From: an uncultured Bacteroides sp.
GTDB lineage: Bacteria > Bacteroidota > Bacteroidia > Bacteroidales > Bacteroidaceae
Reading direction: 5' to 3'
Assembly (NCBI GenBank): GCA_947646015.1
Contig: CANSEY010000006.1
Location: forward strand, 109,406-173,405
Length of the DNA stretch: 64,000 nt
The notes under the pieces were generated by a model that was not told the DNA's origin, did no database searches, and saw only the letters and a list, made by a program, of their open reading frames with translations. A program made the position numbers and the translations under genes. Positions 34,862 through 59,322 of the stretch are shown here, piece by piece. Every line of letters begins with the position of its first letter. Within the stretch, counting starts at the first letter, position 1.

Positions 34862-34906
34862 TTAAGTGCTATATCACAATTCTTAGAATTAAAGGAAATT
34901 CCTCGG

Positions 34907-34925: not shown

Positions 34926-34949
34926 AAGATATGAACCGATAAGAACTAT

Positions 34950-35020: not shown

Positions 35021-35048
35021 TTGGTCTTCCTGTGTTTTACATCCTTCA

Positions 35049-35210: not shown

Positions 35211-35354
35211 TTAGTTCTCTCGATATGGATAGAGTATTCTTAATGTTGAAGATAACATGCACAGATCCGGTTGATTAGTAATATAATATTTCCTATCTTA
35301 GCACCGGCAAATAAAATCACCTGAAAAGATAAAACTATAAATGAATCGAACACC

Positions 35355-41613: not shown

Positions 41614-41646
41614 CTGCATTTATAAGGTAAACACGTGTATAAGCAA

Positions 41647-42195
41647 ATGGAAGAATTTGAGTTGTCGGAACAATGCAGGCTGGGAAATAATCGAGCCCGC
41701 AAAGAATTGTATGAGCATTATGGAGGGCGTTTGCTAGGCGTCTGTCTGCGCTATACCGGCGACCGTGATACAGCTCAGGATCTGCTTCACGATGGTTTTA
41801 TAAAGATATTCAGTTCTTTCGACAAGTTCACCTGGCGGGGTGAAGGCTCACTGCGGGCCTGGATGGAACGGGTGATGGTCAATACCGCTTTACAGTATCT
41901 TCGCAAGAGTGATGTAATCAGTCAGTCTACGCCTTTGGAAGAAGTACCCGAAGATTACGAGGAACCCGACGCTTCGGCTGTAGAGATGATTCCGCAAGCG
42001 GTATTGATGCGATTTATCGAAGAGCTGCCGGCGGGATACCGTACCGTGTTCAACCTTTACACCTTCGAGGAAAAATCGCATAAGGAAATAGCACAGTTGT
42101 TAGGTATTAATGAGAAGTCATCGGCTTCGCAATTATTTCGGGCGAAGAGCGTGTTGGCTAAGAGAGTAAAAGAATGGATAATGAATAACGGATAG
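41647..42195 (+). CDS. das1: ECF sigma factor (Das1-type, ECF21-like)
   Basis: 182 residues from the ATG at 41647 (a GTG at 41635 extends the frame by four codons). Region 2 reads GGRLLGVCLRYTGDRDTAQD, LLHDGFIKIFSSFDKFTWRG; region 4 reads LPAGYRTVFNLYTFEEKSHK, EIAQLLGINEKSSASQLFRA. The compact linker and region 4 fit the ECF21 group that works with single-TM partners. The partner anti-sigma starts 9 bp downstream. By recalled literature, the Das1 sigma factor controls vesicle production together with Dma1. Confidence 0.85.
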   Translation: MEEFELSEQCRLGNNRARKELYEHYGGRLLGVCLRYTGDRDTAQDLLHDGFIKIFSSFDKFTWRGEGSLRAWMERVMVNTALQYLRKSDVISQSTPLEEVPEDYEEPDASAVEMIPQAVLMRFIEELPAGYRTVFNLYTFEEKSHKEIAQLLGINEKSSASQLFRAKSVLAKRVKEWIMNNG

Positions 42196-42203
42196 GTAGA
42201 GAT

Positions 42204-43463
42204 ATGGAAGAGAAAGAATTATGGATGAATAAGTTGAAGGAGAAGCTCGGGAATTACTCGGAGCCGCTTCCTGCTTCCGGTTGGGAACAACTGGAAAAAG
42301 AACTTATGCCTCCTGTGGAGAGGAAGATATATCCTTATCGTAAATGGACGGTAGCCGCTGCGGCTGTCATTTTATTGGCTTTGGTGTCATCGGTCAGCCT
42401 GTATTTCCTCGGGACTCCTGCTGCTGATGAAATTCGTCATGCCAAGACTCCGGCGTTAGCCTCTGTACCGGATGTTTTGCCGGATGCGCAGCAACCGGAT
42501 ATGACAGGAACAACGGTAGAACCGGTAGTGCGTCCGGTAGTGAAGAACCGTATCGCGAAAGCAGAACGGAACATTCCCCAGCTGACGGCAAATATCGACG
42601 AACCGGTGAAGAAAGAAGAGCAGCAACCTTCGGAACTGAACGCTCAGACCGGCGACCGGAAAGAAAAAGAAGAAGTGGAACCGGTGGAAGAAACGAAGGC
42701 CGCCCAGCATAAGCCCGCAGATACGGAACAACCGAGAAATAAGCCGCGCCGCCCTTCCAGCAGAGACAAACTGCATATTCCGGCAGAAAAGGCATCTTCG
42801 CAGAAAGGCACATGGTCGATGGGACTTTCGGTAGGTAACTCCGGTGGTGCTTCTACAGAGTTGGGATCGGGCATTCCTTCTTATATGTCCCGTGTGAGCA
42901 TGGTATCGGTATCAAACGGTCTGCTGAGCATACCCAATGATCAGCAATTGGTCTTTGAAGATGGAGTACCTTATTTGCGTCAGGCCAATCAGGTGGTCGA
43001 TATGGAGCACCATCAGCCTATTTCCTTCGGATTATCTGTCCGCAAAAGTCTGGCGAAAGGTTTCTCTGTCGAAACAGGATTGACTTACACCTTGCTTTCT
43101 TCGGATGCAAAGTTTGCGGACAGCGACCAGAAGACCGAGCAGAAACTGCATTATCTGGGTATCCCGTTAAAAGCGAACTGGAACTTCCTTGATAAGAAAC
43201 TGTTTACTCTTTATGTATCTGGTGGAGGTATGATTGAGAAATGTGTTTATGGTAAGCTGGGCACAGAGAAGGAAACTGTGAAACCTTTGCAATTCTCCGT
43301 CTCCGGTGCAGTCGGCGCACAGTTTAATGCTACCAAACGGGTAGGTATATACGTAGAACCCGGTGTTGCTTATTTCTTTGATGACGGTTCCGATGTACAG
43401 ACCATCCGTAAGGAAAATCCGTTCAACTTCAATATTCAGGCGGGTATCCGACTTACTTATTAG
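42204..43463 (+). CDS. dma1: Dual-membrane-spanning anti-sigma factor (Dma1-type) with outer-membrane beta-barrel
   Basis: 419 residues. The cytoplasmic N-terminus (1-46, MEEKELWMNKLKEKLGNYSE) should bind the sigma factor. One inner-membrane helix follows (WTVAAAAVILLALVSSVSLYF, about 48-68). About 130 residues rich in Pro, Glu and Lys (70-195, e.g. KEKEEVEPVEETKAAQHKPA) look disordered and long enough to cross the periplasm. The C-terminal 220 residues form an outer-membrane beta-barrel domain (ISFGLSVRKSLAKGFSVETG, KLHYLGIPLKANWNF, VGIYVEPGVAYFF) ending in the aromatic FNIQAGIRLTY. There is no signal peptide. This is the architecture described for Dma proteins, which control vesiculation through Das1. 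Confidence 0.82.
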   Translation: MEEKELWMNKLKEKLGNYSEPLPASGWEQLEKELMPPVERKIYPYRKWTVAAAAVILLALVSSVSLYFLGTPAADEIRHAKTPALASVPDVLPDAQQPDMTGTTVEPVVRPVVKNRIAKAERNIPQLTANIDEPVKKEEQQPSELNAQTGDRKEKEEVEPVEETKAAQHKPADTEQPRNKPRRPSSRDKLHIPAEKASSQKGTWSMGLSVGNSGGASTELGSGIPSYMSRVSMVSVSNGLLSIPNDQQLVFEDGVPYLRQANQVVDMEHHQPISFGLSVRKSLAKGFSVETGLTYTLLSSDAKFADSDQKTEQKLHYLGIPLKANWNFLDKKLFTLYVSGGGMIEKCVYGKLGTEKETVKPLQFSVSGAVGAQFNATKRVGIYVEPGVAYFFDDGSDVQTIRKENPFNFNIQAGIRLTY

Positions 43464-43485: not shown

Positions 43486-43538
43486 TTTAAAAGCGATATT
43501 TTACCAATAACGGTTAAAATATCGCTTTTAAAGTTTTA
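43486..43538 (+). terminator. Strong terminator after the Das1/Dma1 operon
   Basis: Perfect 18-bp arms 43486-43503 and 43515-43532 (TTTAAAAGCGATATTTTA and its complement) around an 11-nt loop, followed by GTTTTA. A smaller ATATAG/CTATAT hairpin precedes it. Confidence 0.8.
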
Positions 43539-43643: not shown

Positions 43644-44240
43644 ATGGTGGATTCTATAAATGAAAAACGTTTATTAACCGAATTAAAGAACGGCTCCTTT
43701 CATGCATTTGAAAGGTTATATAATATGTATAGCGGTAAGTTATACAACTTCATTATGCGAATTTCTTCCGGCAATCAATATATGGCTGAAGAAGTAGTTC
43801 AGTCTGCCTTTATCCGTGTTTGGGAAGTACGTGAGCGAGTAGAGCCGGAGTCTTCATTTATTTCTTTTCTTTGTACCATCGCCAAGAATTTATTAATGAA
43901 TATGTATCAGCGTCAGACTGTAGAGTATGTTTACAATGAATATTTGAAAAATACAGGAGTAGATCGTGACTCCCAGACAGAAGAAAGTATTGACTTGCGA
44001 TTCTTGAATGAATATATCGATTCTTTGGCTGAAGAATTGCCGGCGCAACGGAAGAAAATCTTTATTCTGAGCAAAAGGCAAAATTATACAAATAAAGAAA
44101 TAGCGGAGATGATGGGTATTTCCGAAAGTACAGTTGCCACGCAACTATCTTTGGCCGTGAAGTTTATGCGTGAGCAGTTAATGAAGCATTATGATAAAAT
44201 CGTTGCGCTTCTGTTTGCCTTTTTTGTTAATGAAATGTAA
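43644..44240 (+). CDS. ECF sigma factor of the GDPD locus
   Basis: 198 residues. Region 2: FERLYNMYSGKLYNFIMRIS, EEVVQSAFIRVWEVRERVEP, SFLCTIAKNLLMNMYQR. Region 4: LPAQRKKIFILSKRQNYTNK, EIAEMMGISESTVATQLSLA. FecI-like. It lies 63 bp before a FecR gene and heads the same-strand set FecR-SusC-SusD-GDPD-GDPD-GlpT, so it most likely drives the SusC operon on substrate sensing. Confidence 0.9.
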   Translation: MVDSINEKRLLTELKNGSFHAFERLYNMYSGKLYNFIMRISSGNQYMAEEVVQSAFIRVWEVRERVEPESSFISFLCTIAKNLLMNMYQRQTVEYVYNEYLKNTGVDRDSQTEESIDLRFLNEYIDSLAEELPAQRKKIFILSKRQNYTNKEIAEMMGISESTVATQLSLAVKFMREQLMKHYDKIVALLFAFFVNEM

Positions 44241-44303
44241 TTGTAATCTTTGCTTTTGGATGGCAGATAGGATGAAAATGTATACCTGTAAATAAGTAGG
44301 AAG

Positions 44304-45281
44304 ATGGATAAGATACATTATAAAGAGCTGATTGAAAAATATTTCGAAGGAAATATAACGGACACTGAAATAAAGGAGTTGTCCGATTGGATAAAGAACG
44401 ACCGTCAGTTGCAAAACTGGTGGGAACAGGAGTTTACCAAGTCGGATGCCGCTATTGATCCGATACTGCGCGATAAACTCTTTGCACGGATAAAAGAAGG
44501 AACACTGAAACATACGTCACCGAGAACGAAGGGCGTGAGAACTCTCCCTATGACTCCTTGGAGGTGGGTGGCTGCTATTTTGTTACCTGTCTGTATTGCT
44601 TTTTTTACTTATTATTTGATCGATTCGTCGCAAATGACCAGTGCGCCTTTTATTGTCAAAGCAGATAAAGGTGATAAAGCTACAGTTGAATTGCCGGATG
44701 GAACGAATGTAGTGCTTAACTCAGCTTCTCAATTGAGTTATCTGAATAATTTTGGAGAGAAAGTCCGCAGAGTGCAACTGAATGGTGAGGCCTACTTTAA
44801 AGTCGCTCCTGATGAGAAACATGCGTTTATAGTGCAGATAGGTGATTTGGAAGTAAAGGTATTGGGGACTTCCTTCAATGTATCTGCTTATGAAGATGCA
44901 AAAGACATTACGGTTGTTTTGTTGGAAGGGAAAGTAGGAATTTACACTCAGGAAACTTCGCGTATGATGAAGCCCGGTGATAAGATAGAATACAATAAAA
45001 ACACTCATCAACTTGTTGCTACCCAAGTGCATCCCAACGATTATATTGAATGGACGAAAGGAAATATCTATTTCGAGAAAGAATCGTTGGAAAACATTAT
45101 GAAAACTCTTTCACGGATTTATGATGTGGAGATACGTTTCGATTCGAATAAACTTCCTAAAGAATACTTTACGGGAACGATTCCTAGTGGCGGCATACAG
45201 AACGCCTTGAATATTCTCATGCTTACTTCGCCTTTTTATTATGAAATGGATGGCTCGGTCATTGTCTTGAAAGAGAAGTAG
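44304..45281 (+). CDS. FecR-type anti-sigma regulator
   Basis: 325 residues. Cytoplasmic N-terminus (IHYKELIEKYFEGNITDTEI, DWIKNDRQLQNWWEQEF), one membrane helix (WVAAILLPVCIAFFTYYL), then the periplasmic FecR domain (VKADKGDKATVELPDGTNVV, LNSASQLSYLN, VQLNGEAYFKVAPDEKHAFI, VLGTSFNVSAYEDAKDITVV) and a C-terminal STN-like domain (ESLENIMKTLSRIYDVEIRF). A terminator follows, separating the sigma/FecR pair from susC. Confidence 0.92.
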   Translation: MDKIHYKELIEKYFEGNITDTEIKELSDWIKNDRQLQNWWEQEFTKSDAAIDPILRDKLFARIKEGTLKHTSPRTKGVRTLPMTPWRWVAAILLPVCIAFFTYYLIDSSQMTSAPFIVKADKGDKATVELPDGTNVVLNSASQLSYLNNFGEKVRRVQLNGEAYFKVAPDEKHAFIVQIGDLEVKVLGTSFNVSAYEDAKDITVVLLEGKVGIYTQETSRMMKPGDKIEYNKNTHQLVATQVHPNDYIEWTKGNIYFEKESLENIMKTLSRIYDVEIRFDSNKLPKEYFTGTIPSGGIQNALNILMLTSPFYYEMDGSVIVLKEK

Positions 45282-45310
45282 ATAAGCATCTTTATCATGA
45301 AATTAGATAT

Positions 45311-45345
45311 AGCCATTCCTGAGTTTTCCCCCGGAATGGCTTTTT
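45311..45345 (+). terminator. Terminator between FecR and susC
   Basis: AGCCATTCC (45311-45319) pairs with GGAATGGCT (45333-45341), followed by TTTT. The remaining 106 bp before susC include a small dyad TTAAC (45366-45370)/GTTAA (45375-45379); the sigma-dependent susC promoter should lie here, but I cannot assign it. Confidence 0.8.
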
Positions 45346-45451
45346 AATTTATGAAGAACCGTTGGTTAACAAGAGTTAAAGATAGATAGCCGATTGGACG
45401 AAAGGGGAGAGCAGTCGGTATACCTGTCAAACAGCTTAAAAGTTTTGATAT

Positions 45452-48400
45452 ATGGAAAACAGAACACCCTTTGTGAAACTCCCTCAGTCTACAGCAGGGA
45501 GAAGTAAGAACTGGAGAACATTACGGGCCATTTGTCTGCTACTGTTCATGAGCATCTCTTTGACCGCTTATTCTCAAATAACGGTTGATTTGAAAGACAT
45601 TTCGTTAAGAGCCTCATTAAAAAAGATTGAGCAAGTTAGTAATTACAAGTTTTTCTACAGTGAGAGTCTGCCGGAATTGAGTTGGAAAGTTTCATTGAAC
45701 GTTCGGGATGTAACGATCGACCAGACCATGACACGTCTTTTGGAAGGAATGGAACTGACTTACAAAAAAGAACAGGAAAACGTCATTGTGTTGATTCGTA
45801 AAACACAAAGTAAACAACTGACGAAAAAAGTAACCGGAACAGTTGTCGATGCCAACGGAGAACCCATAATCGGTGCAAGTATCGTGATTAAAGGTGAGTC
45901 TCACGGGACAATAACGGATTTTGATGGTAAGTTCGCATTGCCCGACGTACCGGAGAAAGCAGTCTTGACCATCTCTTATATCGGTTACAAGACAGTCAAT
46001 CTTGCTACTACCGATCAGACATTGGTAAAGGTAGTACTTGAGGAAGATAGTAAGATGATCGATGAAGTCGTAGTAGTAGGTTATGGAGTTCAGTCACAGA
46101 AGCTGGTCACTACCTCTATCAGTAAAGTGAAGATGGAGAATATAGATCAGGGAAATGATTACAATCCGATTAAGATGTTGCAAGGTCGTGTGGCAGGTGT
46201 GAATATATCTTCTGCCTCCGGAACACCGGGTGAAACTCCCAATATAACTGTTCGTGGTATCGGTTCCGTTAGCGGAGGAAGTTCACCGCTGTATGTAGTG
46301 GATGGAATCCCCAGCGAAAAATATCCGAATTTGAATCCCAATGATATTGAGAGTATGGAAGTGTTGAAAGATGCGTCGGCAGCGGCAATCTATGGTTCGC
46401 GTGCCAATGCCGGGGTGGTGCTGATCACTACCAAATCGGGGCAGCAGGGGAAAACAAAGATCGAAGTATCCGGCCGTTACGGCTTTGCCTCCCTTGCCAG
46501 TGATATAGAGATGGCTAATTCAACGGAATACATGAATACTATGCAGGCTGCTATTGATAACTACAATGTGCAGATGGGAACCAACCTGCAACTGTATATT
46601 CCTTCTCAGATTCAGGAAACCGACTGGGTGAAAGAGATTTCAAGAAAGAACTCAAAGACGGGTGCCGGTTCTATCAGCATTTCCGGCGGAAATGAAAAGA
46701 CTACTTTTTTTGCTTCCTTAGGAGCCAATACTCAGGAAGGCTATTTGAATAAGAGTAAGTATGACCAATACAATATGCGTGCTAAGTTCTCACATAAAAT
46801 AAACAGCATCTTCAAACTAAATATGAATCTGGCAGGTTCGGCAAGTCGTTCGGACTTATTGGAAGAAACGAGTACCAGTTTGAAAGTATTGCGTACAGCC
46901 CGTGAGGAACAACCTTGGTATTCTCCTTACAAAGAAGACGGGACATCCTATAAAGTGAATGGAACGGATATTCTGCGCCATAATCCCCTCATGTTAATAA
47001 ATGAAGAAGACTGGGTAGCAAAGAAATATCAGTTGTCGGGAGTATTCAGTATAGACGTCACCCCCTTCAAAGGTTTTAAATATACACCGACAGTGAGTGC
47101 GTACGGCATTTTGGATAATGTTTCAAAGAAGTTATCGGATAAGCACGATGCCCGTAAAAACAGTAGTGGTTGGGGAGCTTTGGCACAACAGAAAGACCAG
47201 AGTTTCCGTTATGTGATTGATAATGTTTTTTCTTACAATAACGAATGGAATAAACTTATTTACTCAGTTATGTTAGGACACTCTTTCGAGAAATACACTT
47301 ACGAACAGTTTGGAGCAAAGAGTGATAATTACGCCAATGGTGCCTATCCTTCGTCCAGTTTCGATCTCATTAATGCCGGACCGAACATCTATGCCGGAGA
47401 TATCAGTTATACTTCCTACGCTTTGGAGTCTTACTTTGGTCGAATCGCCCTGAACTGGGATAATAAATATATCCTGAATGCCTCGTTACGCAGCGATGGT
47501 TCTTCCCGCTTTGCGAAGAATAAGAGGTATGGTTACTTTCCCTCGGCTTCTTTTGCATGGAGAGCTTCCAATGAAGGCTTCTTTCCCAAAAACAAATATG
47601 TCAATGATGCCAAACTGAGATTAAGCTGGGGTATGACAGGCAGCATGGCAGGTGTCAGCAATTATGCTCCGTTGTCGCTCATTAGTGCGGGAGGCGCATC
47701 CTACAATGGCTCTGCCGGATTCCAGATTTCACAGGACGCACGTGCGCTGACTTGGGAGAAGGCAAGTCAGTTCAATATAGGTTTTGATATCGAAATGTTT
47801 CAGTCTCGTTTAACCTTGAACGTTGATATGTTCTATCAGAAAACGACCGATCTGCTGTTTAAGAAACCTGTAAATGCAAGTACCGGATATACCACTCTAC
47901 AGTCTAACATCGGTTCGTTGGAGAATAAAGGACTTGAATTGGCATTAAACGGCAAAATTCTCACCGGAAAATTCAAATGGGACTTGGGAGGTAATATTTC
48001 TTTCGTAAAGAACAAACTGCTCTCTTTAATTGAAGGAAGTGAAATGTACGTTGTACCCAGTAGCGGGAGTAACCTTTTGGGTGGTTCCATGCATGCTTTG
48101 ATCAACGGAGAACCCATCAGTACATTTTATATGTTGAAGATGGAAGGCATTTATCAGCGTGACGATGAAGTTCCCGCCAAACTTTATGCCAAGGGAGTGC
48201 GTGCCGGTGATGTGAGATATTTTGATTACAATGAAGATGGCGACATCACCGACGCCGACCGTGTGAATGTAGGAAAAGCTATTCCCGACTTTTACGGTGG
48301 TATTACTTCGAATTTCTCATACAAAGGTTTTGATCTGTCATTATTTGGGCAATTTTCCGTAGGTGGAAAAGTGATGGCGGCATGGCGGGGTGTCAATGGT

Positions 48401-48871
48401 TCCGAAGGTACCGACCATTTAGGTCTGGCACTGTCTAATGTAAAAGTGGGCGACCGTGGAGAATCCGTAGAACAGTTCTTTAATATCAGTAAGGAGGTAG
48501 CCAATGGATACTGGCGCGGTGAAGGCACCAGCAACTCGATTCCCCGTCCTGTAAGGATCGGTGTGCATACCGGATATGATTATGACTACAATGTTCAGAC
48601 ATCCACCCGCTATCTGGAAGATGCTTCCTACTTCAAACTGAAAACAGTCACATTAGGATATACCTTGCCGGAATCCATCACGAAGAAAATTCATGTGAAC
48701 TCTCTGAGATTTTACGTTTCGGCAGACAACTTGCTGGCTTTTACAAAATATTCGGGTTACGATCCTGAAACTTCTTTCTCGGGCAGTCCCGGAGACTCCA
48801 ATTACGGAGTTGATTTCGGCCTGCAACCAGTGTTGAGAACATTTATCTTTGGTTTGAATCTAAACTTTTAA
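45452..48871 (+). CDS. SusC-like TonB-dependent transporter with STN domain (GDPD locus)
   Basis: 1,139 residues. After the signal region (LRAICLLLFMSISLTAYSQ) comes an STN domain (LKDISLRASLKKIEQVSNYK ... FFYSESLP), a carboxypeptidase-regulatory-like domain (GTVVDANGEPIIGASIVIKG), the plug (MIDEVVVVGYGVQSQKLVTT, MLQGRVAGVNISSASG, PLYVVDGIPSEKYPNLNPND, VLKDASAAAIYGSRANAGVV) and the outer-membrane barrel (ending TFIFGLNLNF). Imports a ligand across the outer membrane with the SusD lid and signals to FecR/sigma. The downstream genes suggest the ligand is a glycerophosphodiester or a polymer containing it, not a plain glycan. Confidence 0.93.
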   Translation: MENRTPFVKLPQSTAGRSKNWRTLRAICLLLFMSISLTAYSQITVDLKDISLRASLKKIEQVSNYKFFYSESLPELSWKVSLNVRDVTIDQTMTRLLEGMELTYKKEQENVIVLIRKTQSKQLTKKVTGTVVDANGEPIIGASIVIKGESHGTITDFDGKFALPDVPEKAVLTISYIGYKTVNLATTDQTLVKVVLEEDSKMIDEVVVVGYGVQSQKLVTTSISKVKMENIDQGNDYNPIKMLQGRVAGVNISSASGTPGETPNITVRGIGSVSGGSSPLYVVDGIPSEKYPNLNPNDIESMEVLKDASAAAIYGSRANAGVVLITTKSGQQGKTKIEVSGRYGFASLASDIEMANSTEYMNTMQAAIDNYNVQMGTNLQLYIPSQIQETDWVKEISRKNSKTGAGSISISGGNEKTTFFASLGANTQEGYLNKSKYDQYNMRAKFSHKINSIFKLNMNLAGSASRSDLLEETSTSLKVLRTAREEQPWYSPYKEDGTSYKVNGTDILRHNPLMLINEEDWVAKKYQLSGVFSIDVTPFKGFKYTPTVSAYGILDNVSKKLSDKHDARKNSSGWGALAQQKDQSFRYVIDNVFSYNNEWNKLIYSVMLGHSFEKYTYEQFGAKSDNYANGAYPSSSFDLINAGPNIYAGDISYTSYALESYFGRIALNWDNKYILNASLRSDGSSRFAKNKRYGYFPSASFAWRASNEGFFPKNKYVNDAKLRLSWGMTGSMAGVSNYAPLSLISAGGASYNGSAGFQISQDARALTWEKASQFNIGFDIEMFQSRLTLNVDMFYQKTTDLLFKKPVNASTGYTTLQSNIGSLENKGLELALNGKILTGKFKWDLGGNISFVKNKLLSLIEGSEMYVVPSSGSNLLGGSMHALINGEPISTFYMLKMEGIYQRDDEVPAKLYAKGVRAGDVRYFDYNEDGDITDADRVNVGKAIPDFYGGITSNFSYKGFDLSLFGQFSVGGKVMAAWRGVNGSEGTDHLGLALSNVKVGDRGESVEQFFNISKEVANGYWRGEGTSNSIPRPVRIGVHTGYDYDYNVQTSTRYLEDASYFKLKTVTLGYTLPESITKKIHVNSLRFYVSADNLLAFTKYSGYDPETSFSGSPGDSNYGVDFGLQPVLRTFIFGLNLNF

Positions 48872-48883
48872 AAACAGACGAGT

Positions 48884-50227
48884 ATGAAACGATTTTATAT
48901 GATCAACTATTTACTATGCGGCATTTGTCTTTTATGGATGACAGGATGCTCAAATATGCTGGATGAAATGCGACCGAAGGACAAGATACCTCAAGACGCA
49001 TTGAGCGAGTCCGACTTGACAAAGTTGCTTAACGGGGTATATGCTGAAATGGAAGAACTGGTTTTCAAGTTCTATATGGACGGTGATGTGAAAGGAGAGA
49101 ATTTCAAGGCGGGCCCGGGATTTTCCATGAATGATCCGATGTCGATGGCTCCGAGCTCCAAAGAGGTATTGGGGCAGTGGCAGAAATGTTTCACAGCCTT
49201 AAAGCAAGTCAATTTCTTGGTGGAGACCTACGAAGCATCCTCCAATAAAGACAGTCAGGTGGTGAAACAGACCGGAGGAACCGGCTATTATTTCCGGGCA
49301 TTGATTTATTATCATTTAGTCACCCGTTGGGGAGGAGCGCCTATTTTACGTAAGCGTACTTACGATGTAGTGCCTATCTCACCCGAAGCCGATGTGTGGA
49401 ATTTTATTAAAGAAGATTTGGGCAAGGCAGAGAGCTTACTTCCGGAATTTACCGATCGCTTTTACGTATCTTTAAGTGTATGTGATGCACTGAATGCAAA
49501 AGTTTGTCTGGCCTTGAAAGATTATACGAATGCGGCTATTTATGCAGACAGAGTGATCACTAAGTCCAATTTCGCATTGAGTACCACATCAGCTGAATAT
49601 GCTAATGCTTTCATCTCCAATAGTAATAGCAAAGAACTGATTTTTGCTCTGGCCAATAAACGCAGCACGGGATTGTTACTTTTCTATCAGTCTGTTAATG
49701 ATATTGACCCGACATGGGATTATTCTCCCTCTGCCGATTGCTATAGTCATCTTTATGCCGATACTTCAGTCAAAAAGCAGGATATTCGTGCCAAAGCAGT
49801 CTTTGGGGCAGACAATAGCCGGATCATCAAATTTCCGAATGGAAGCACCGGGCAGTTTGTGACCAACGAACAACCTTCTCAAACTCCTATAGTAGTGGCT
49901 CGTGTAGCCGAAATGTATCTGATTAAAGCGGAAGCACTGGGAGCAACGAACGGCCTGTCGACCTTGAAAGAGTTTATGAATAAGCGTTATGCTACAGTCT
50001 CATTACCTTCAAGCATGAGCGACACCGAGTTTCAGAATCAGATACTGGACGAACGCCATCGTGAACTGTATGCAGAAGGACAGCGCTGGTACGACTTGAA
50101 GAGGACCAATCGGTTGGATTTATTTACTTCGCTGAACGGAAGAAATTATTTAATGTACTATCCGGTTCCCCAGTCGGAACGCGATTTGGCAGGAGCCGAA
50201 AATTATCCTCAAAACGATGGTTATTAA
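48884..50227 (+). CDS. SusD/RagB-like surface lipoprotein (GDPD locus)
   Basis: 447 residues, 12 bp after susC. Lipobox WMTGC. SusD landmarks: MLDEMRPKDKIPQDALSESD, WQKCFTALKQVNFLVETYEA, GTGYYFRALIYYHLVTRWGG, PILRKRTY, VVARVAEMYLIKAEALGATN and the C-terminal ILDERHRELYAEGQRWYDLK, RTNRLD. It is shorter than many SusDs. It should bind the substrate at the surface and deliver it to its SusC partner. Confidence 0.92.
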   Translation: MKRFYMINYLLCGICLLWMTGCSNMLDEMRPKDKIPQDALSESDLTKLLNGVYAEMEELVFKFYMDGDVKGENFKAGPGFSMNDPMSMAPSSKEVLGQWQKCFTALKQVNFLVETYEASSNKDSQVVKQTGGTGYYFRALIYYHLVTRWGGAPILRKRTYDVVPISPEADVWNFIKEDLGKAESLLPEFTDRFYVSLSVCDALNAKVCLALKDYTNAAIYADRVITKSNFALSTTSAEYANAFISNSNSKELIFALANKRSTGLLLFYQSVNDIDPTWDYSPSADCYSHLYADTSVKKQDIRAKAVFGADNSRIIKFPNGSTGQFVTNEQPSQTPIVVARVAEMYLIKAEALGATNGLSTLKEFMNKRYATVSLPSSMSDTEFQNQILDERHRELYAEGQRWYDLKRTNRLDLFTSLNGRNYLMYYPVPQSERDLAGAENYPQNDGY

Positions 50228-50248
50228 TAAATTAAGAAAGAACAGATT

Positions 50249-52780
50249 ATGAAGAATATAAAAATATTTGCAACGTTTTGCATCTGCTTGCTGCTGTTTT
50301 CAGCCTGTTCGGATGACTGGAAAGAAAATGCGTTAACAGCCAAATTCTCTTTTGACAAGTCGCTGTATTATGTCGGAGATGAAGTTCGCATTACTAATGA
50401 AACCGTAGGCGGAGAAGGAAACTACACTTATGAGTGGGATTTGGGAGACGGAAAGACTTCAACGGACCCCAATCCCGTAGTCACCTATCAAACGAACGGT
50501 GCCTATACGGTGACTCTTCATGTGAAGGATGCAAAAGGCACTTATGCGATGGCTCACAAATTGTTGACCATTGATTCGGAGCCTTTGCCTGAAGTAGGAA
50601 ATGTAAAACTGAAATGGGTAGGCGGTCATGTGTTAGGAGAAGTACGTTCTACAGCTCCGGCTGTCAGTGATGATAATGGGGTGTATATGACTTCCAATGA
50701 TCATTATTTACGTAAATTTTCGGCAGCGACAGGAGACCAGCTTTGGGAATTTGACCTTTGGACATCTGCTGACGGCGATGCACCATCCGGAAATACGCAT
50801 ACTACTCCAAGCATTGAAATAGACGGAACAATCTACGTAGGAACCGGAGACACCAGTGGCAAAGTAGGACGTGTGTATGCAATAAATCCGGACGGGAGTA
50901 AGAAATGGCTGGTGGCAGGTGACGCTGAAAATGGCTTCTGGAATAAAGGAAAAGCTTCCACACCCCGTATCAATTACCTGACCTGTGCCATTGGGGAGAA
51001 TCATGTATATATGGGTAATGGCGGTTCTACAGGATCAGTACTTGCAGTAGATAAGGTGACCGGCTATCGGGTAGGATACGTAGCGAATGCGGATAATTCC
51101 GGAGGTCCTTCCGGAGGAGTATCTGCAGGAATAGTATTGGCAAACAACACTTTAGTTTGGGGTGGCGGAAAGAATGGATTGTTCGGGGCTTCTGCTTCTG
51201 CGTTGAATGCCGGTGGAAATGTAATGTGGGCTTGGCAGGTATTTAGCTCCGGCGATGATAAGCCGTCAGAAAATATGAACGGTTCTCCGGCAGTAGATGA
51301 GGTTGGTACTATTTACGGAACAGCTACGTTTGCAGGAATGGGAAGTAGCGCATTTGCTATAGGAAGTGATGGAGTGGAGAAGTGGCGTACTCCTTTGGGC
51401 AATGTCGGCACGCTGGATCAAGGCGGTGTTGTGATAGGACTCGACGGAAGCATTATCGTTACAGTGAAACGTGCTCCGGGGGAAGCAACCGGAGGAATCA
51501 TCTCTTTGTCTCCGGGAGGAGCTATCCAATGGCATTACGGCATTGCGGAAGATGTAAGCGGTTGTGCGGCAATTGATCAAGCAGGAAACATACATTTCGG
51601 CACCCAGTCCGGCAATTATTATATCATTAAACCGGAAGAATCGGATGAACAATTGATTCTGAAAAAAGACCTTGCTGCGTTGATTAGTGAAAGTGACTCT
51701 CCTTTAAAAGGAGATTGGGAAGCGGGAATCGGTAAAATCTGGAGTTCGCCTACCATCGGACCGGATGGAGCGATTTATATCGGAGTCACCAATACGGTGG
51801 ACCCTACAAAGAGCGTGTTGGTAGCTTTGGAAGATGAGGGAATTACCGGGGCCGCAACCTCTGCCTGGCCGATGAAAGGGAAGGACAGACGTCACTCCGG
51901 AGCCCAATCGGGAGGGAATGGAGAGAATCCCGGTGGAGAAGAAGGAGGACAGTTGCCTGTGACGGGGAATTTGAAAGCAGATTTAAAGAGTCTGTTTGAA
52001 AGCACCTCTTATAAAGTGTGGCTCTGCGCGCATCGTGGAAATACCCAAAAAGGGATGAAAGAGGGGATTCCCGAAAACTCGTTACCTGCGATAGAACACT
52101 CGGTCAAAGCAGGAGTTGAGATGATCGAGCTGGATGCACGGCCGACCTCTGACGGTGTGTTGGTATTGATGCACGACAACACCATCGACCGGACAACAAA
52201 CGGTAGCGGTGCGGTGGGAGACTTTACTTATCAGCAATTACAACAATTTTATCTGAAAGATGCATCCGGCAATATAACTGGCGAACGAATCCCGACTTTG
52301 GAGGAAGCGATGAAGAAAGGAAAAGGAAAAGTTTATTATAATCTGGATATTGTCAACAAGAATGTTGCGGTAAATACGATCGTCGCATTGCTTAAAAAAT
52401 TGGATATGGAAGGTTCCACTTTGCTGTATGTATCCAACAATCGCAATTATGCATTTGATTTGAAGGCAGCCAACAGTAGTTTGCTGTTGCACCCGATGGC
52501 GAAAGCTACCGATGACATCACATACTTCTCCTCATCCTACACTGATAATGTACAAATGATGCAGCTGTCTACGTCAGATGCTATGGGTGGAACGATGGTT
52601 AATGAGATTAAAGATAAAGGCTGGCTTCTTTTCTCCAACATTGTCGGAGCGAATGATACCAATATGTTGTCGGAAAACTACTCCGGTTTGGTGGGAATGA
52701 TTAACAAACGCATCAACATTGTGCAAACAGACTATGCTGAAGTAGCTGCCAAATATTTAAAGTCTAAAGGATACAGATAA
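50249..52780 (+). CDS. PKD/beta-propeller/glycerophosphodiester phosphodiesterase fusion lipoprotein
   Basis: 843 residues. Lipobox LLFSAC followed by SDDWKEN (surface-type signal). A PKD domain (about 30-115, YTYEWDLGDGKTSTDPNPVV) is followed by a PQQ-like beta-propeller (about 120-550) with blades such as GVYMTSNDHYLRKFSAATGD, TIYVGTGDTSGKVGRVYAIN and AIYIGVTNTVDPTKSVLVAL. After a Gly/Glu linker comes a GDPD catalytic domain (about 590-843): H595-R596-G597 in LCAHRGNT, PENSLPAIEHSVKAGVEMIE, LDARPTSDGVLVLMHDNTID and RIPTLEEAMKKGKGKVYYNL. It should hydrolyse glycerophosphodiesters to glycerol-3-phosphate and an alcohol at the cell surface. I do not know of this fusion as a characterised enzyme. 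Confidence 0.85.
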   Translation: MKNIKIFATFCICLLLFSACSDDWKENALTAKFSFDKSLYYVGDEVRITNETVGGEGNYTYEWDLGDGKTSTDPNPVVTYQTNGAYTVTLHVKDAKGTYAMAHKLLTIDSEPLPEVGNVKLKWVGGHVLGEVRSTAPAVSDDNGVYMTSNDHYLRKFSAATGDQLWEFDLWTSADGDAPSGNTHTTPSIEIDGTIYVGTGDTSGKVGRVYAINPDGSKKWLVAGDAENGFWNKGKASTPRINYLTCAIGENHVYMGNGGSTGSVLAVDKVTGYRVGYVANADNSGGPSGGVSAGIVLANNTLVWGGGKNGLFGASASALNAGGNVMWAWQVFSSGDDKPSENMNGSPAVDEVGTIYGTATFAGMGSSAFAIGSDGVEKWRTPLGNVGTLDQGGVVIGLDGSIIVTVKRAPGEATGGIISLSPGGAIQWHYGIAEDVSGCAAIDQAGNIHFGTQSGNYYIIKPEESDEQLILKKDLAALISESDSPLKGDWEAGIGKIWSSPTIGPDGAIYIGVTNTVDPTKSVLVALEDEGITGAATSAWPMKGKDRRHSGAQSGGNGENPGGEEGGQLPVTGNLKADLKSLFESTSYKVWLCAHRGNTQKGMKEGIPENSLPAIEHSVKAGVEMIELDARPTSDGVLVLMHDNTIDRTTNGSGAVGDFTYQQLQQFYLKDASGNITGERIPTLEEAMKKGKGKVYYNLDIVNKNVAVNTIVALLKKLDMEGSTLLYVSNNRNYAFDLKAANSSLLLHPMAKATDDITYFSSSYTDNVQMMQLSTSDAMGGTMVNEIKDKGWLLFSNIVGANDTNMLSENYSGLVGMINKRINIVQTDYAEVAAKYLKSKGYR

Positions 52781-52794
52781 TAGTACATATAGAT

Positions 52795-53715
52795 ATGAAG
52801 AAATATATAATGATAGGAATCTTATTCGCATTTCCTTTCTGCCTGTCGGCAGACGAACCGGTGAAAGCCATTTATGCGAAGATAACGAACCCTGACAATA
52901 AAGAAATCACGGTTGTAGCTCATCGGGCAGACTGGCGTTACGCACCCGAAAATTCACTTGCCGCTATTGAAAGTTCCATTCGTCTGGGAGCTGACGTAGT
53001 GGAGCTGGATGTTCAGAAAACCAAAGACGGTCAATTGATCCTGATGCATGACAAAACGCTGGACCGAACGACTACCGGAAAAGGAAAGGTAGCCGAATGG
53101 ACATTGGATTCTATCCGGACACTCTATCTGAAAAATGGAGCGGCACTCAAAACCAAGCATCGTGTACCTACTTTGGAAGAGGCTTTATGGGTTGCCAAAG
53201 GTCGTGTGATGGTCAATCTGGATAAAGCATATCCGATATTTGACGAGATTTTTCCCATCCTCGAAAAGACGGGAACAGTGGATCAGATTATCATGAAAGG
53301 TTCCAAGCCTGTGGCAGACGTAAAGAAAGACTTAGGTAAATATCTGGACCGTATCATTTATATGCCTATCATTCATTTGGATAAGCCGGGAGCAATGAAG
53401 CAACTGGATGATTTTATGACGGAGCTGCATCCCGTAGCTTTTGAACTTCTATTTGTATCGGATACCTGCCAGGCCCCCAAGCAAGTAAAAACGAAGTTGA
53501 AAGGAAAAAGTAAAATCTGGTATAATACGTTGTGGGATACGATGGCTGGCGGACATGATGATGATAAATCGTTGGAGAATCCGGACGAAGGATATGGTTA
53601 TCTGATCGATACACTCGGAGCGGCCATCATTCAGACAGACCGTACTGCCTATCTGCTGGAATATTTGCAATCGCGTAAGAAGCGTAGTGAAAACGGCCAA
53701 GATGCGTATCATTAA
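52795..53715 (+). CDS. Periplasmic glycerophosphodiester phosphodiesterase
   Basis: 306 residues. A cleavable signal peptide (MKKYIMIGILFAFPFCLSA) points to the periplasm. The GDPD motif is VVAHRADWRYAPENSLAAIE: catalytic H43 and R44 are present, but the usual Gly of HRG is Ala. Metal ligands E70 and D72 (ADVVELDVQKTKDGQ) and H85/D86 (LILMHDKTLDRTT) are intact; HRVPTLEEALWVAKGRVMVN follows. It probably finishes off diesters that pass through SusC. Its stop is 15 bp before the antiporter gene, which fits delivery of free glycerol-3-phosphate. Confidence 0.9.
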   Translation: MKKYIMIGILFAFPFCLSADEPVKAIYAKITNPDNKEITVVAHRADWRYAPENSLAAIESSIRLGADVVELDVQKTKDGQLILMHDKTLDRTTTGKGKVAEWTLDSIRTLYLKNGAALKTKHRVPTLEEALWVAKGRVMVNLDKAYPIFDEIFPILEKTGTVDQIIMKGSKPVADVKKDLGKYLDRIIYMPIIHLDKPGAMKQLDDFMTELHPVAFELLFVSDTCQAPKQVKTKLKGKSKIWYNTLWDTMAGGHDDDKSLENPDEGYGYLIDTLGAAIIQTDRTAYLLEYLQSRKKRSENGQDAYH

Positions 53716-53730
53716 AATATAGACTTCTTT

Positions 53731-55089
53731 ATGGGATTTAAACTATTGGATTTTTATAAAATCTCTCCTCCGGTGTCCGGGGGAGAGACTGATCCGGAAC
53801 GCTCTGTCCGTTTCAAGCGTATTCGTTGGGCTACCTTTCTGTCTGCCACTACCGGATATGGCATTTATTATGTTTGTCGTTTGAGTATGAATGTAATCCG
53901 TAAACCGATTGTAGAAGACGGAGTTTTTACCGAAACCCAACTGGGGATTATCGGTTCCTGCCTTTTTTTCGTATATGCCGTCGGTAAGCTGACCAATGGC
54001 TTTCTTGCTGACCGTAGCAATGTAAAGCGTTTTATGTCTACCGGATTATTGTGTTCTGCTCTGATCAACTTATGTCTGGGATTCACGAATTCCTTCTTTG
54101 CTTTTGTTCTCCTTTGGGGGTTGAATGGTTGGTTTCAGTCGATGGGGGCAGCATCAGGAGTTGTGTCGCTGACTCGTTGGTATAGTAGTAAAGAGCGAGG
54201 TACTTTTTATGGCTTTTGGTCGGCCAGCCACAATTTGGGTGAAGCTCTGACTTTTATATCCATCGCTTTGCTGGTCAGTTGGATGGGATGGCGTTATGGG
54301 ATGATCGGTGCGGGAGTGATTGGTTTGCTTGGTTTTCTGATGATGCTTGCTTTTATGCGTGATACGCCTCAAAGTCAGGGCTTTTTGCTAGATCGGTGGG
54401 GGACGTCAGATGCTCATTCCGTTTCCGGTAAGCAAACCGAGGAATTCAATAAAGCTCAGAAAGCAGTTTTGAAGAATCCTGCTATTTGGATTCTTGCATT
54501 ATCCAGTGCTTTTATGTATATCAGCCGTTATGCAGTCAATAGCTGGGGTGTTTTCTATCTGGAAGCGCAAAAAGGTTATTCTACTTTGGATGCTAGTTTT
54601 ATTATATCTATCAGTTCTGTATGCGGAATTGTAGGTACGGTTTTCTCAGGTATTATTTCAGATAAGTTTTTTGCTGGCAGTCGTAATGTTCCGGCTTTGA
54701 TATTCGGATTAATGAATGTGTCTGCTCTTTGTTTGTTTCTATTGGTTCCGGGGGTACATTTTTGGGTGGATGCTTTGGCGATGGTGCTCTTCGGTTTGGG
54801 CATTGGAGTGCTGATTTGTTTTTTAGGAGGACTGATGGCTGTCGATATTGCTCCCAGCAATGCTTCGGGAGCCGCTTTGGGAGTTGTCGGTATAGCGAGT
54901 TATATAGGAGCCGGTTTGCAGGATGTGATGAGTGGCATTCTGATCGAAGGTCAGAAGACGGTGCAAAATGGAGTAGAAGTTTACGATTTTACATATATCA
55001 ATTGGTTTTGGATTGGTGCAGCCTTGCTTTCAGTAGTGTTTGCTTTGTTGGTTTGGAATGCAGGAGAGAAAAGAAGTGAAATAAATTGA
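53731..55089 (+). CDS. OPA-family MFS antiporter (GlpT-like glycerol-3-phosphate transporter)
   Basis: 452 residues with 12 membrane helices. The organophosphate:phosphate antiporter family is shown by GYGIYYVCRLSMNVIRKPIV (TM1 arginine, counterpart of GlpT R45), YAVGKLTNGFLADRSNVKRF, GWFQSMGAASGVVSLTRWYS, KERGTFYGFWSASHNLGEAL and SAFMYISRYAVNSWGVFYLE (TM7 arginine, counterpart of R269). It should exchange inorganic phosphate for glycerol-3-phosphate across the inner membrane. As last gene after two GDPDs, glycerol-3-phosphate is the most sensible substrate; a hexose-phosphate relative (UhpT/UhpC) cannot be excluded. Confidence 0.88.
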   Translation: MGFKLLDFYKISPPVSGGETDPERSVRFKRIRWATFLSATTGYGIYYVCRLSMNVIRKPIVEDGVFTETQLGIIGSCLFFVYAVGKLTNGFLADRSNVKRFMSTGLLCSALINLCLGFTNSFFAFVLLWGLNGWFQSMGAASGVVSLTRWYSSKERGTFYGFWSASHNLGEALTFISIALLVSWMGWRYGMIGAGVIGLLGFLMMLAFMRDTPQSQGFLLDRWGTSDAHSVSGKQTEEFNKAQKAVLKNPAIWILALSSAFMYISRYAVNSWGVFYLEAQKGYSTLDASFIISISSVCGIVGTVFSGIISDKFFAGSRNVPALIFGLMNVSALCLFLLVPGVHFWVDALAMVLFGLGIGVLICFLGGLMAVDIAPSNASGAALGVVGIASYIGAGLQDVMSGILIEGQKTVQNGVEVYDFTYINWFWIGAALLSVVFALLVWNAGEKRSEIN

Positions 55090-55136: not shown

Positions 55137-55184
55137 CCATTTCGGGAAGCAGGCAATAGCTGTGCTTTCCGGAATGGCTTTTTT
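55137..55184 (+). terminator. Terminator of the GDPD operon
   Basis: 15-bp arms 55137-55151 (CCATTTCGGGAAGCA) and 55163-55177 (TGCTTTCCGGAATGG), with two G-U/mismatch positions, around an 11-nt loop, then C and six Ts. A strong intrinsic terminator. Confidence 0.85.
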
Positions 55185-55206
55185 ATAATTAATAAAAATC
55201 GTTTTT

Positions 55207-55701: not shown

Positions 55702-55847
55702 TTACTTAATAGTCTCTATTAACCAACGATTTAAGTTCCGGCTTTCTGCACTAAATTCCACTCCGATCTTTACAATAAGATATTCTTCCTTCGTATATCT
55801 TCAAAGGTTTGTATTCCAATAGGAAGTTTACGCATCAAGTTGTCCAT
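55702..55847 (-). pseudogene. Internally deleted ghost of an AAA-ATPase-like (PD-(D/E)XK) family gene
   Basis: On the minus strand an ATG (55847-55845) opens MDNLMRKLPIGIQTFEDIRR, the characteristic start of the abundant Bacteroides AAA-ATPase-like/DUF1703 proteins, and stops after 26 codons (LL then TAA). Directly joined, in another frame, is KIGVEFSAESRNLNRWL and ETIK, then TAA (55704-55702), the typical C-terminal end of the same family. About 500 middle codons are missing. Its promoter survives at 55875-55882. The gene seems to have lost its whole interior by deletion. Confidence 0.65.
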
Positions 55848-55874
55848 ATCTGATTCTTTTGATCTTTTGCACAT

Positions 55875-55882
55875 CAAAGATA
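55875..55882 (-). promoter_or_regulatory. Relic -7 box of the deleted ATPase gene
   Basis: CAAAGATA on the plus strand is TATCTTTG on the minus strand, 27 bp before the ghost gene's ATG. Confidence 0.5.
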
Positions 55883-55945
55883 ACAAATATTTCCTGAAGT
55901 CTGCTTCAATTGGTGGGCTGATTTGAAAATGCGGTGAGAAATAGA

Positions 55946-55986
55946 AAAAAGACGGTTGTGTTTTTCCGATTTCCCGCCGTCTTTTT
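55946..55986. terminator. Bidirectional terminator hairpin
   Basis: AAAAAGACGG (55946-55955) pairs perfectly with CCGTCTTTTT (55977-55986) around a 21-nt loop; A-run before and T-run after suit both directions. It lies between the ghost gene and the inverted repeat at 56003. Confidence 0.65.
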
Positions 55987-56002
55987 GGAGAAAGAAAAGG
56001 TA

Positions 56003-56124
56003 AAAAGTGAGAGGAGTGAGAGAGGATTTCTAACATTCGTATTTTTTTTAGAGAAATATAGAAAGTAGAAATAAAGAAATAAAATAGAAAAAGTTTCAAT
56101 TCCTCTCTCACTCCTCTCACTTTT
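56003..56124. repeat. Perfect 24-bp inverted repeat with 74-bp AT-rich centre
   Basis: Arms 56003-56026 and 56101-56124 are exact reverse complements. Each arm holds two GTGAGAG direct repeats 9 bp apart. The 74-bp centre is very AT-rich. The whole 122-bp unit could be a MITE-like element, a long RNA hairpin, or an iteron/origin-type site for the primase/helicase encoded nearby. No target-site duplication is evident. The longest minus-strand ORF across it (up to 56183) is low-complexity and rejected. The rest of the 55614-56202 gap is covered by the hairpins, the ghost gene and the HigBA promoter. Confidence 0.75.
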
Positions 56125-56166
56125 GGGGGTGAAGATGATGAAAAATAATATAAAACGAGGAAATAT

Positions 56167-56198
56167 GTTGTATAGTTGAACAACGTTTCTTATATTTG
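56167..56198 (+). promoter_or_regulatory. HigBA promoter with internal dyad
   Basis: TTG (56168-56170) and TATATTTG (56191-56198), 20-bp spacer. GTTGT (56167-56171) and ACAAC (56180-56184) form a dyad between the boxes, a likely operator for HigA autorepression. The toxin ATG (56203) is only four bases past the -7 box. Confidence 0.65.
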
Positions 56199-56202
56199 CG
56201 TT

Positions 56203-56535
56203 ATGAAAAGAGAAATAATAGCATATAAAGGATACTTCAAAGAATTCTTTGAAAATTTAGATGCTGGCACCCAAGATAAGATATTGTATGTGCTAATGTT
56301 ATTGCAGACACAAGACAGAATACCTTTGAAATTTATGCGGTTGATAGAAGAAGGACTTTATGAACTTCGTATCGAGTACCAAAGCAATATATATAGAATA
56401 TTCTTTTGTTTCGACGAAGGGCGTATTGTGATTCTGTTTAACGGTTTTCAAAAGAAAACCGAAAAAACACCAAAGAAAGAAATTGATAAAGCAAAGATAT
56501 TAAGAAAGGAGTATTATGGAAGCAAAAACAAATGA
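56203..56535 (+). CDS. higB: HigB/RelE-type toxin (Gp49-like)
   Basis: 110 residues from MKREIIAYKGYFKEFFENLD (the longer frame from a TTG at 56176 overlaps the promoter and is rejected). RelE/HigB-fold landmarks: DRIPLKFMRLIEEGLYELRI, EYQSNIYRIFFCFDEGRIVI and LFNGFQKKTEKTPKKEIDKA. A ribosome-dependent mRNA endonuclease by family. Toxin-first order with a 20-bp overlap into the antitoxin is typical of HigBA. Confidence 0.9.
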   Translation: MKREIIAYKGYFKEFFENLDAGTQDKILYVLMLLQTQDRIPLKFMRLIEEGLYELRIEYQSNIYRIFFCFDEGRIVILFNGFQKKTEKTPKKEIDKAKILRKEYYGSKNK

Positions 56536-56821
56536 GGAATTCTTTAATGTCAGTGCATTAATAGATGAGCGTTTTGGTAAGGAAGGAACAGCTTCTCGTG
56601 CAGAGGCAGAAGAAAAGGCCTACGCCTTTTATACAGGACAGATTATCGAGGACGCAAGAAAAAAGGCTAAAATCACTCAGGCTGAATTAGCCCGGCGTAT
56701 CGGCTCTGACCGTTCTTATATTTCAAGAGTAGAAAGTGGTCAGACAGAGCCTAAAGTATCTACTTTCTATCGTATAATGAATGCGTTAGGCTGTAAAATC
56801 GAATTTTCAATGATTTTGTAA
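56516..56821 (+). CDS. higA: HigA-type antitoxin with helix-turn-helix
   Basis: 101 residues. The C-terminal half is a Cro/C1-type XRE helix-turn-helix (IIEDARKKAKITQAELARRI, GSDRSYISRVESGQTEPKVS, TFYRIMNALGCKIEFSMIL). The N-terminal half (FNVSALIDERFGKEGTASRA) should wrap the toxin. It neutralises HigB and probably represses the operon at the dyad upstream. A terminator follows. Confidence 0.92.
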   Translation: MEAKTNEEFFNVSALIDERFGKEGTASRAEAEEKAYAFYTGQIIEDARKKAKITQAELARRIGSDRSYISRVESGQTEPKVSTFYRIMNALGCKIEFSMIL

Positions 56822-56830
56822 AAACAATAA

Positions 56831-56865
56831 ATGCAGAGTATCTGTCAAGATGACTCTGCATTTTG
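56831..56865. terminator. Terminator between HigBA and the primase gene
   Basis: ATGCAGAGT (56831-56839) pairs with ACTCTGCAT (56853-56861), then TTTG. It sits between the convergent higA and the primase gene. Confidence 0.75.
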
Positions 56866-56890
56866 CTATATTCACAAGGCTTTCCCGCTT

Positions 56891-59005: not shown

Positions 59006-59091
59006 TTTTATTTTGATTATTGTTTGTCGATGCAAAGGAACTTCTTTGCGGAAATGTGTAAAGGAACTTTGTATAAAATGGCAATAAGTTA

Positions 59092-59322
59092 CTACGGTTC
59101 GCCCAAAAAGTGTATGATAGTTGCCACTTGTTTCGGCGAAAGGAGACGGTTGCGTGCGCGGTAGCCTTCCTGTTCGAGTTCGTGCAGGAGAGGGAGGTTG
59201 TAAATAATCCAACGACGAAGTATTTGTAAAGCAACTTTGAGGCAGACATGGGGATTGTAAAGGTGAGCCAGTTCCGCTTTGGTATAGGTGCGGATAAGGA
59301 AAGAATCTTCTTTGTAATTCAT
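59092..59322 (-). CDS. DUF4248 protein
   Basis: 76 residues: FLIRTYTKAELAHLYNPHVC, LKVALQILRRWIIYNLPLLH, RNRLLSPKQVATIIHFLGEP. It fits the DUF4248 family, small proteins regularly found just upstream of BT4734/VirE-type genes in Bacteroides. The last part looks helix-turn-helix-like, so a DNA-binding helper for the primase is plausible. Same strand as the primase, 86 bp before it. Confidence 0.8.
   Translation of the reverse strand: MNYKEDSFLIRTYTKAELAHLYNPHVCLKVALQILRRWIIYNLPLLHELEQEGYRARNRLLSPKQVATIIHFLGEP

Follow-up and report, generated by a model that had tools for sequence, protein, structure and literature searches.

SusCD systems are usually interpreted as glycan importers. SusCD loci that serve organophosphorus are already known from Flavobacterium, where the Pus (PusCD) systems lack carbohydrate-active enzymes (CAZymes), are co-localised with phosphodiesterases or phosphatases and are reported also to have inner-membrane organophosphorus transporters in their clusters (PMC8115612). 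Pus was defined there by low-phosphate induction, and the PUSI diesterases are listed with pf00149 and pf16670. Here we describe a locus of seven genes, at positions 43644-55089 of a 64,000-nucleotide stretch of DNA (the window) from an uncultured Bacteroides sp. (GenBank assembly GCA_947646015.1, contig CANSEY010000006.1, positions 109,406 to 173,405, forward strand; draft genome of 4.9 Mb, 74.7% complete), in which SusCD is joined to two GDPD-family phosphodiesterases, one of them with a DUF4996 domain, and to a carrier of the organophosphate:phosphate antiporter (OPA) type. We consider it probable that the locus is induced by its substrate and devoted to taking up a phosphodiester nutrient through SusCD.

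The window locus is like the Flavobacterium systems in having SusCD and phosphoesterases without a CAZyme, and its GDPD/DUF4996-OPA form would, on its domains, resemble Pus. It differs in its diesterases, which belong to PF03009/PF16387 (GDPD/DUF4996) and not to pf16670/pf00149, and in its ECF/FecR pair, its SusC with an STN domain and its OPA-type antiporter. In E. coli glpTQ an OPA gene likewise adjoins a GDPD gene; however, the 10 kb examined there hold neither SusCD nor a propeller GDPD, and the window OPA, at 29% identity to GlpT, is without six of the GlpT residues. With the classical Sus-type polysaccharide utilisation loci (PULs) under ECF/FecR control the locus shares the ECF sigma factor, FecR, STN-SusC, SusD and a lipoprotein enzyme, whereas phosphodiesterases and an OPA carrier stand where those loci have glycosidases and a sugar permease. 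In B. thetaiotaomicron, BT4724-BT4727 also bring a TonB receptor, SusD and a GDPD-family gene close together, although orthology is not established. These genes are tabulated among those that iron depletion lowers (P 2E-05 to 0.152 for BT4724-25 and 0.053 for BT4727; PMC10434189), a response that is suggestive only. A B. thetaiotaomicron transcriptome paper (PMC10994844) gave no match to the terms sought, and no description of the GDPD/DUF4996-OPA form of a SusCD locus in Bacteroides was found in the open-licence literature.

The seven open reading frames (ORFs) are all open and all lie on the plus strand. They encode an ECF sigma factor of Bacteroidetes family 1 (43644-44240; TIGR02985, 157.1 bits against a cut-off of 126.4, with Sigma70_r2 and r4_2), a FecR-type anti-sigma factor (44304-45281; Pfam FecR and FecR_C), a SusC-type TonB-dependent transporter with an N-terminal STN signalling domain (45452-48871), a SusD-type ligand-binding lipoprotein of 447 aa (48884-50227), an 843-aa lipoprotein in which PKD, beta-propeller and GDPD domains are fused (50249-52780), a GDPD with a C-terminal DUF4996 domain (52795-53715; PF03009, 97.9 bits; PF16387, 118.2 bits) and the OPA-type antiporter (53731-55089; MFS_1). 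The assignment of SusC was made with TIGR04056 (OMP_RagA_SusC, 948.3 bits), and Pfam places its STN domain at residues 65-117, CarbopepD_reg_2 at 127-208 and Plug at 218-322. SusD matches PF07980 (SusD_RagB) and PF14322 (SusD-like_3) and has a cysteine at residue 22 that is invariant across nine aligned rows; many SusD/RagB chains were matched among solved structures, none of them indicating a ligand. The adjacent SusC and SusD homologues place the locus among SusCD uptake loci. No glycoside-hydrolase model was matched by any of the seven proteins (Pfam, E <= 0.001), and no carbohydrate lyase or carbohydrate esterase model was among their Pfam matches, which puts the locus outside PULs in the sense of a CAZyme beside SusCD. 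The preliminary description of this DNA, made from the sequence alone, was right about the seven genes on one strand, the domains of which Pfam and NCBIfam recovered, about the lack of a glycoside hydrolase and about a strong terminator at the end of the locus. It had also given spacings of 12-22 bp from susC to the antiporter gene; the tight spacing holds, and the measured gaps are 12, 21, 14 and 15 bp, a range of 12-21 bp.

The conservation of this arrangement was followed in a genus sample of 149 Bacteroides genomes. Matches to the DUF4996 GDPD (E < 1e-60) were found at 87 places in 52 of the genomes. Context covered 84 of these places, 81 of them in the window or in fetched regions and three in the named loci L020, L024 and L025, leaving G349:C53, G441:C55 and G336:C211. 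When identical cores were collapsed (104 to 96 genes, the window copy excluded), 74 distinct DUF4996 genes belonged to loci of the genus. Of these, 66 had SusC or SusD no more than six genes upstream on the same strand, and in 42 an OPA gene followed within three genes; among the eight genes without SusC/D upstream, three run into the edge of a contig or region. L020 and L069 were tallied as OPA-less owing to a masked stretch in L020, where the apparent break in the OPA gene is a run of N and not biology. Seen from the transporter, the count covers 49 OPA homologues at 50% identity or more, without fragments: 44 lay less than 2 kb from a DUF4996 GDPD, three lay 6.6-7.7 kb from one on the same contig, and two had none. 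These two (L146 and L147) sit in SusC-SusD-OPA-EEP-EEP runs, with one EEP checked by Pfam, in which the phosphoesterase differs and the SusCD-OPA pairing is retained. The run of L146 (L146:5247-15558) also holds a beta-propeller-repeat protein, a Por-secretion-tail protein and an AXE1 esterase.

The preliminary description had suggested looking in other Bacteroides for the order SusCD-GDPD-OPA, and it was found there, with both partners present for 41 of the 74 DUF4996 genes. Its central claim, that SusCD is coupled to phosphodiesterases and an organophosphate-type antiporter, agrees with the conservation of the locus as a unit and with the catalytic residues that the GDPDs keep. The closest DUF4996 GDPDs found among named records are those of B. 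xylanisolvens (89% identical) and B. congonensis (88%), and in a phylum-wide sample the domain occurred in 9 of 296 genomes, the own genome counted. The own genome has seven GDPD matches; the two in the window, the copy on contig C5 and those on C16 and C42 are in SusCD loci, and for those on C10 (1.6 kb from the contig end) and C14 no SusCD was seen in the available flanks. In the closest relatives only susD and two GDPD genes stand between susC and the OPA gene. Variant loci comprise SusCD-GDPD-OPA alone or a longer form, type A, with the order SusCD, propeller, TIM barrel, metallo-beta-lactamase-like protein, GDPD, OPA and DUF2490. The second own-genome copy (L011) has the TIM-barrel/metallo-beta-lactamase-like form, with FecR-like and sigma-factor-like ORFs upstream (L145, judged by eye). 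Its metallo-beta-lactamase-like protein had no match among solved structures, and its TIM-barrel protein (L011:11462-12343) matched MJ1311 and a D-psicose epimerase.

Both window GDPDs match PF03009 (97.9 and 85.4 bits against 23.6) and have the catalytic His, Glu and Asp of the family. The HR/ExD/HD residues are present in the window DUF4996 GDPD, and no DUF4996 GDPD that spans these positions has lost them (93-94 of 95 rows, the others being gaps; identical proteins and the six rows of L017, L018, L019 and L030 are outside this count). Among the fetched loci there are 23 other GDPD-family proteins, counting the own-genome copies that lie outside SusCD loci; all 23 have H, R, E, D and H, and 22 have the Asp of HD. 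The solved homologue of the DUF4996 GDPD, 3i10, is annotated just as 'putative'. We place the DUF4996 GDPD provisionally in the periplasm, because it has a signal-like start without a lipobox. In the 843-aa lipoprotein the propeller is marginal by Pfam (PQQ_2, 27.1 bits against a cut-off of 27.6) and is backed by phmmer matches to solved, largely designed, propeller proteins. Its Cys-20 is invariant in 17 aligned rows and is followed by SDD in the window clade. A cysteine with an SDD-type start fits the surface-exported lipoproteins of Bacteroides, and on account of this invariant Cys and SDD the protein is probably located on the cell surface. Propeller and GDPD are separate adjoining genes in L024, L099, L105, L107 and L118; since they are fused in the window clade and neighbours in these relatives, the two probably act together.

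By its sequence the carrier is OPA-like and is not a GlpT, and glycerol-3-phosphate is one candidate substrate among others. Its score against the glpT equivalog TIGR00712 is 205.2, far below the cut-off of 632.55, and it is equally distant from GlpT (29.0% identity) and UhpC (28.7%). It has R45, R269, H165 and K80 (GlpT numbering), which we take to be the phosphate-gripping core in GlpT and which, together with several tyrosines, are invariant in all 44 SusCD-linked OPAs, the window included (proteins of at least 400 aa, identical copies and L020, L069 and L134 set aside). At six positions selected in the light of work on GlpT, K46, W138, N162, D274, E299 and Y362 of GlpT are replaced by L, A, S, S, S and G. 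An unbiased column scan singled out K46, N162, A197, P364, F391 and W413. Each of these is invariant across 12 other OPAs, while at least 44 of 46 SusCD-linked ones have a different residue there; only K46 and N162 are common to the two lists. Positions 138, 274 and 362 vary among other carriers, and position 299 is Glu in all 12 and variable within the SusCD-linked clade. The SusCD-linked OPAs have Ala, Ser or Gly at position 138 and Gly at position 362, where GlpT has Trp and Tyr. In the tree the SusCD-linked OPAs group together; the E. coli trio sits on very long branches and the tree supports nothing further.

Other OPAs of the genus fit GlpT better. Three from other Bacteroides that are linked to glpA (L151, L152 and L154) keep all six GlpT residues, and the cut-off of the glpT equivalog is passed by L151 (636.3) and missed by L152 (592.1). 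Only for L152 does the score confirm GlpA, and there the following gene encodes an FAD-binding protein, as expected of GlpB; the remaining glpABC assignment in these three loci is a putative one, from gene order, size and sequence start. For the window OPA the label 'GlpT-type', which the preliminary description used as a claim about substrate, was therefore rejected on its equivalog score, the six absent residues and the true GlpT beside glpA elsewhere in the genus. A second OPA clade, with five of the six residues and F at position 138 (L148, L149, L150 and L155, with L153 and the second OPA of L151, which has R at position 80, as looser members), adjoins GlpD-like, GDPD and glycerol-1-phosphate-dehydrogenase-like genes, with domains scanned for L148. 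The gene order in L148, L149, L150 and L155 is a regulator-sized gene, a GlpD-like dehydrogenase, a GDPD, a glycerol-1-phosphate-dehydrogenase-like gene, the OPA and a HAD phosphatase. This cluster is an independent GDPD-OPA pairing within the genus.

The locus is bounded on the plus strand by a terminator-like hairpin 5' of the sigma-factor gene (43490-43528; -17.0 kcal/mol, z -4.88) and by an intrinsic terminator that ends the susC-OPA unit (55137-55185; -26.5 kcal/mol, z -5.65). None of 200 shuffles was as stable as the latter, and a T run lies directly 3' of it. It was omitted by a generic terminator scan, probably because of its loop, and recovered by folding. Between fecR and susC there is a further terminator-like hairpin with a T run (45311-45346, plus strand; -16.7 kcal/mol, z -4.93), the stem of which is kept in both other aligned loci (L063 and L027/L134, which are one and the same locus). 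Because of this hairpin with its conserved stem, ecf-fecR and susC-to-OPA are probably two transcription units. Rfam at gathering thresholds found only a tRNA. The ECF sigma factor, FecR and the STN domain on the receptor are the gene content that trans-envelope control would need. Such sets sense the receptor and not phosphate status, and the locus is probably substrate-sensed. In L105 (594-4136) residues 1-150 of SusC, with the signal and STN, are 72-80% identical to the window protein, residues 151-200 are 60% identical and the remainder 20-48%; its SusD also differs from that of the window. In L124 (10953-12713) the N-terminus of SusC (signal/STN) is window-like and FecR/ECF are conserved, while the rest of SusC is different. 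This suggests that a transport cassette may be swapped behind a retained sensor, a suggestion weakened by the short SusC of L124 (586 aa), beside which no SusD was recognised.

Gene content, conserved residues, hairpins and linkage suggest a course of events in which locations, induction, catalysis, transport and ligand are all predicted. An external ligand would dock in SusC/SusD, and the STN domain of SusC would signal through FecR to the ECF sigma factor, turning on the susC-to-OPA unit. On the surface lipoprotein, PKD and propeller would hold the ligand and the GDPD domain would trim it. SusCD would bring the trimmed pieces in, the DUF4996 GDPD would cleave the remaining phosphodiester in the periplasm, and the dedicated antiporter would move the phosphomonoester to the cytoplasm against phosphate, chiefly to supply carbon. 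This monoester would be glycerol-3-phosphate or another organophosphate, such as a sugar or polyol phosphate.

Several observations weigh against this reading. An OPA gene lies within 2 kb for 46 of the 87 GDPD places and for 41 none does; the transporter is an optional partner of the GDPD. Among 22 further DUF4996 genes, from named records and from outside the genus, 10 have SusC/D upstream, four an OPA and three both. In L021, L022, L023 and L025, which have similar flanks, the GDPD is retained alone, and the GDPD of L026 is also without SusCD, which means that this enzyme can persist without the rest of the locus. Where the GDPD of known structure 2pz0 has Glu, the 94 DUF4996 members covering the position all have Asp, and given this exchange canonical GDPD activity of the group is not assured by its sequences. 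The OPA subfamily model TIGR00881 reaches 248 against a cut-off of 407.75, though it is still the top NCBIfam model for the window OPA. Finally, in domain scans that covered part of the neighbour genes, some homologous loci carry GH20, GH65, a SASA (sialate-esterase) domain or a sulfatase.

These last accessories speak for a glycan system, in which the ligand would be a polysaccharide, teichoic-acid-like or capsular, that bears diesters of glycerophosphate or sugar phosphate, the GDPDs would remove or open the diester and the OPA would import a sugar phosphate. We regard this as a serious alternative, though one somewhat less probable than not. GH65 occurs with a calcineurin-type phosphoesterase, the SASA esterase is fused to a GDPD, and the sulfatase lies between GDPD and OPA. 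In L146 the SusCD-OPA run continues, after the two EEP-type genes and on one strand, into NanE (243 bits, cut-off 189) and a GlmM-like mutase (262, below its cut-off of 439), and the downstream genes of L147 are alike in order and size, judged without a domain scan. Because of this continuation a sugar phosphate may equally be the product. The small residues at positions 138 and 362 of the SusCD-linked OPAs would be consistent with a roomier site. However, the window locus is without a glycosidase, and none stands between susC and the OPA gene in its closest relatives. The contrast 'not glycans' drawn by the preliminary description is too strict: the window locus has no glycosidase, but glycan enzymes are present in some homologous loci. 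With glycosidases, a sulfatase, PI-PLC or NanE found in certain relatives, phosphodiesters linked to sugar or inositol are real candidates for the ligand.

The preliminary description had read the locus as phosphate and glycerol scavenging, with glycerol-3-phosphate delivered through GlpT, which we now think unlikely. GDPD-family enzymes typically yield glycerol-3-phosphate, E. coli glpTQ has the same OPA-GDPD pairing, and the Flavobacterium Pus systems are induced by low phosphate (PMC8115612). However, the window OPA falls outside the GlpT group by scores and residues. The own genome, at 74.7% completeness, has no OPA beyond the two SusCD-linked ones except one match of 21% identity, and the GlpD C-terminal domain was not found in it, though a GpsA-family match is present. 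Organophosphate:phosphate antiport, as established for GlpT, yields no net phosphate. The locus more probably supplies carbon than scavenges phosphate, because antiport with phosphate gives no such gain and because the local regulator, an ECF/FecR/STN set, reads the receptor.

A third possibility, which we likewise think unlikely, has glycerophosphoinositol or the diester of another phospholipid headgroup as the ligand. PI-PLC or type I phosphodiesterase neighbours occur in other families of related loci, and in L016 the genes after an adjacent SusCD pair encode a PI-PLC-type protein and an alkaline phosphatase. Among NCBIfam models the type-A TIM barrel best matches that of the cobamide phosphodiesterase CbiR, though at 61.9 it stays under the cut-off of 105; sugar epimerases and IolE match more weakly. 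However, SusCD and a large propeller lipoprotein would be heavy machinery for a small headgroup, and no inositol catabolic enzyme was found by Pfam among the seven proteins of the window locus. The idea that a PUL and unrelated genes lie together here by chance is refuted by the two-way linkage counts over the 149 genomes, with nothing found in its favour, and we give it almost no weight.

The surroundings of the locus were also inspected. Just upstream (41635-43463) lie an ECF sigma gene and a gene for an outer-membrane beta-barrel protein; similar genes precede the lone GDPD in L021, L022, L023 and L025, and a DNA match to this flank was seen in L135, which is the same place as L021. A second SusCD-type locus (26719-37238) has a 1124-aa ORF of SusC size, a SusD-like protein, a GH18 BT1044-like protein, a BT_3987-like/laminin-G protein, an F5/8 type C protein and then an alpha-L-fucosidase, and looks like a host-glycan PUL. 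Just downstream of the described locus (56176-59212) there is a Gp49/HTH toxin-antitoxin-type pair, after which a VapE-type gene lies on the opposite strand. A short ORF (55770-56183) contains RKLPIGIQTFE, which is also found near the starts of 519- and 530-aa ORFs of B. xylanisolvens (L020:928-2487 and 12400-13992), located between fecR and susC and after the OPA gene; these ORFs are perhaps a mobile or repeated gene family.

Catalogues based on carbohydrate-active enzymes would leave SusCD-GDPD-OPA loci unexplained. As the DUF4996 GDPD occurs in roughly a third of the genomes sampled, mostly behind SusC/D, feeding on organophosphates may be a widespread trait in the gut. A concrete transporter question that can be tested is posed by the separate OPA clade. 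Which gut interaction the window locus serves depends on whether its ligand is the teichoic acid of another bacterium, a lipid headgroup from host or diet, or a phosphoglycan. We would tentatively go one step further, to what we hold to be a possible but doubtful generalisation, namely that these loci form a Sus-type family feeding on phosphodiester-linked polymers, such as phosphoglycans or teichoic-acid-like polymers of other gut microbes, and that their product, not glycerol-3-phosphate but a different organophosphate such as an amino-sugar or polyol phosphate, is taken up through a hitherto unrecognised OPA clade linked to SusCD. If true, this would be a complete route from the outer membrane to the cytoplasm by which phosphodiesters are eaten as intact sugar or polyol phosphates.

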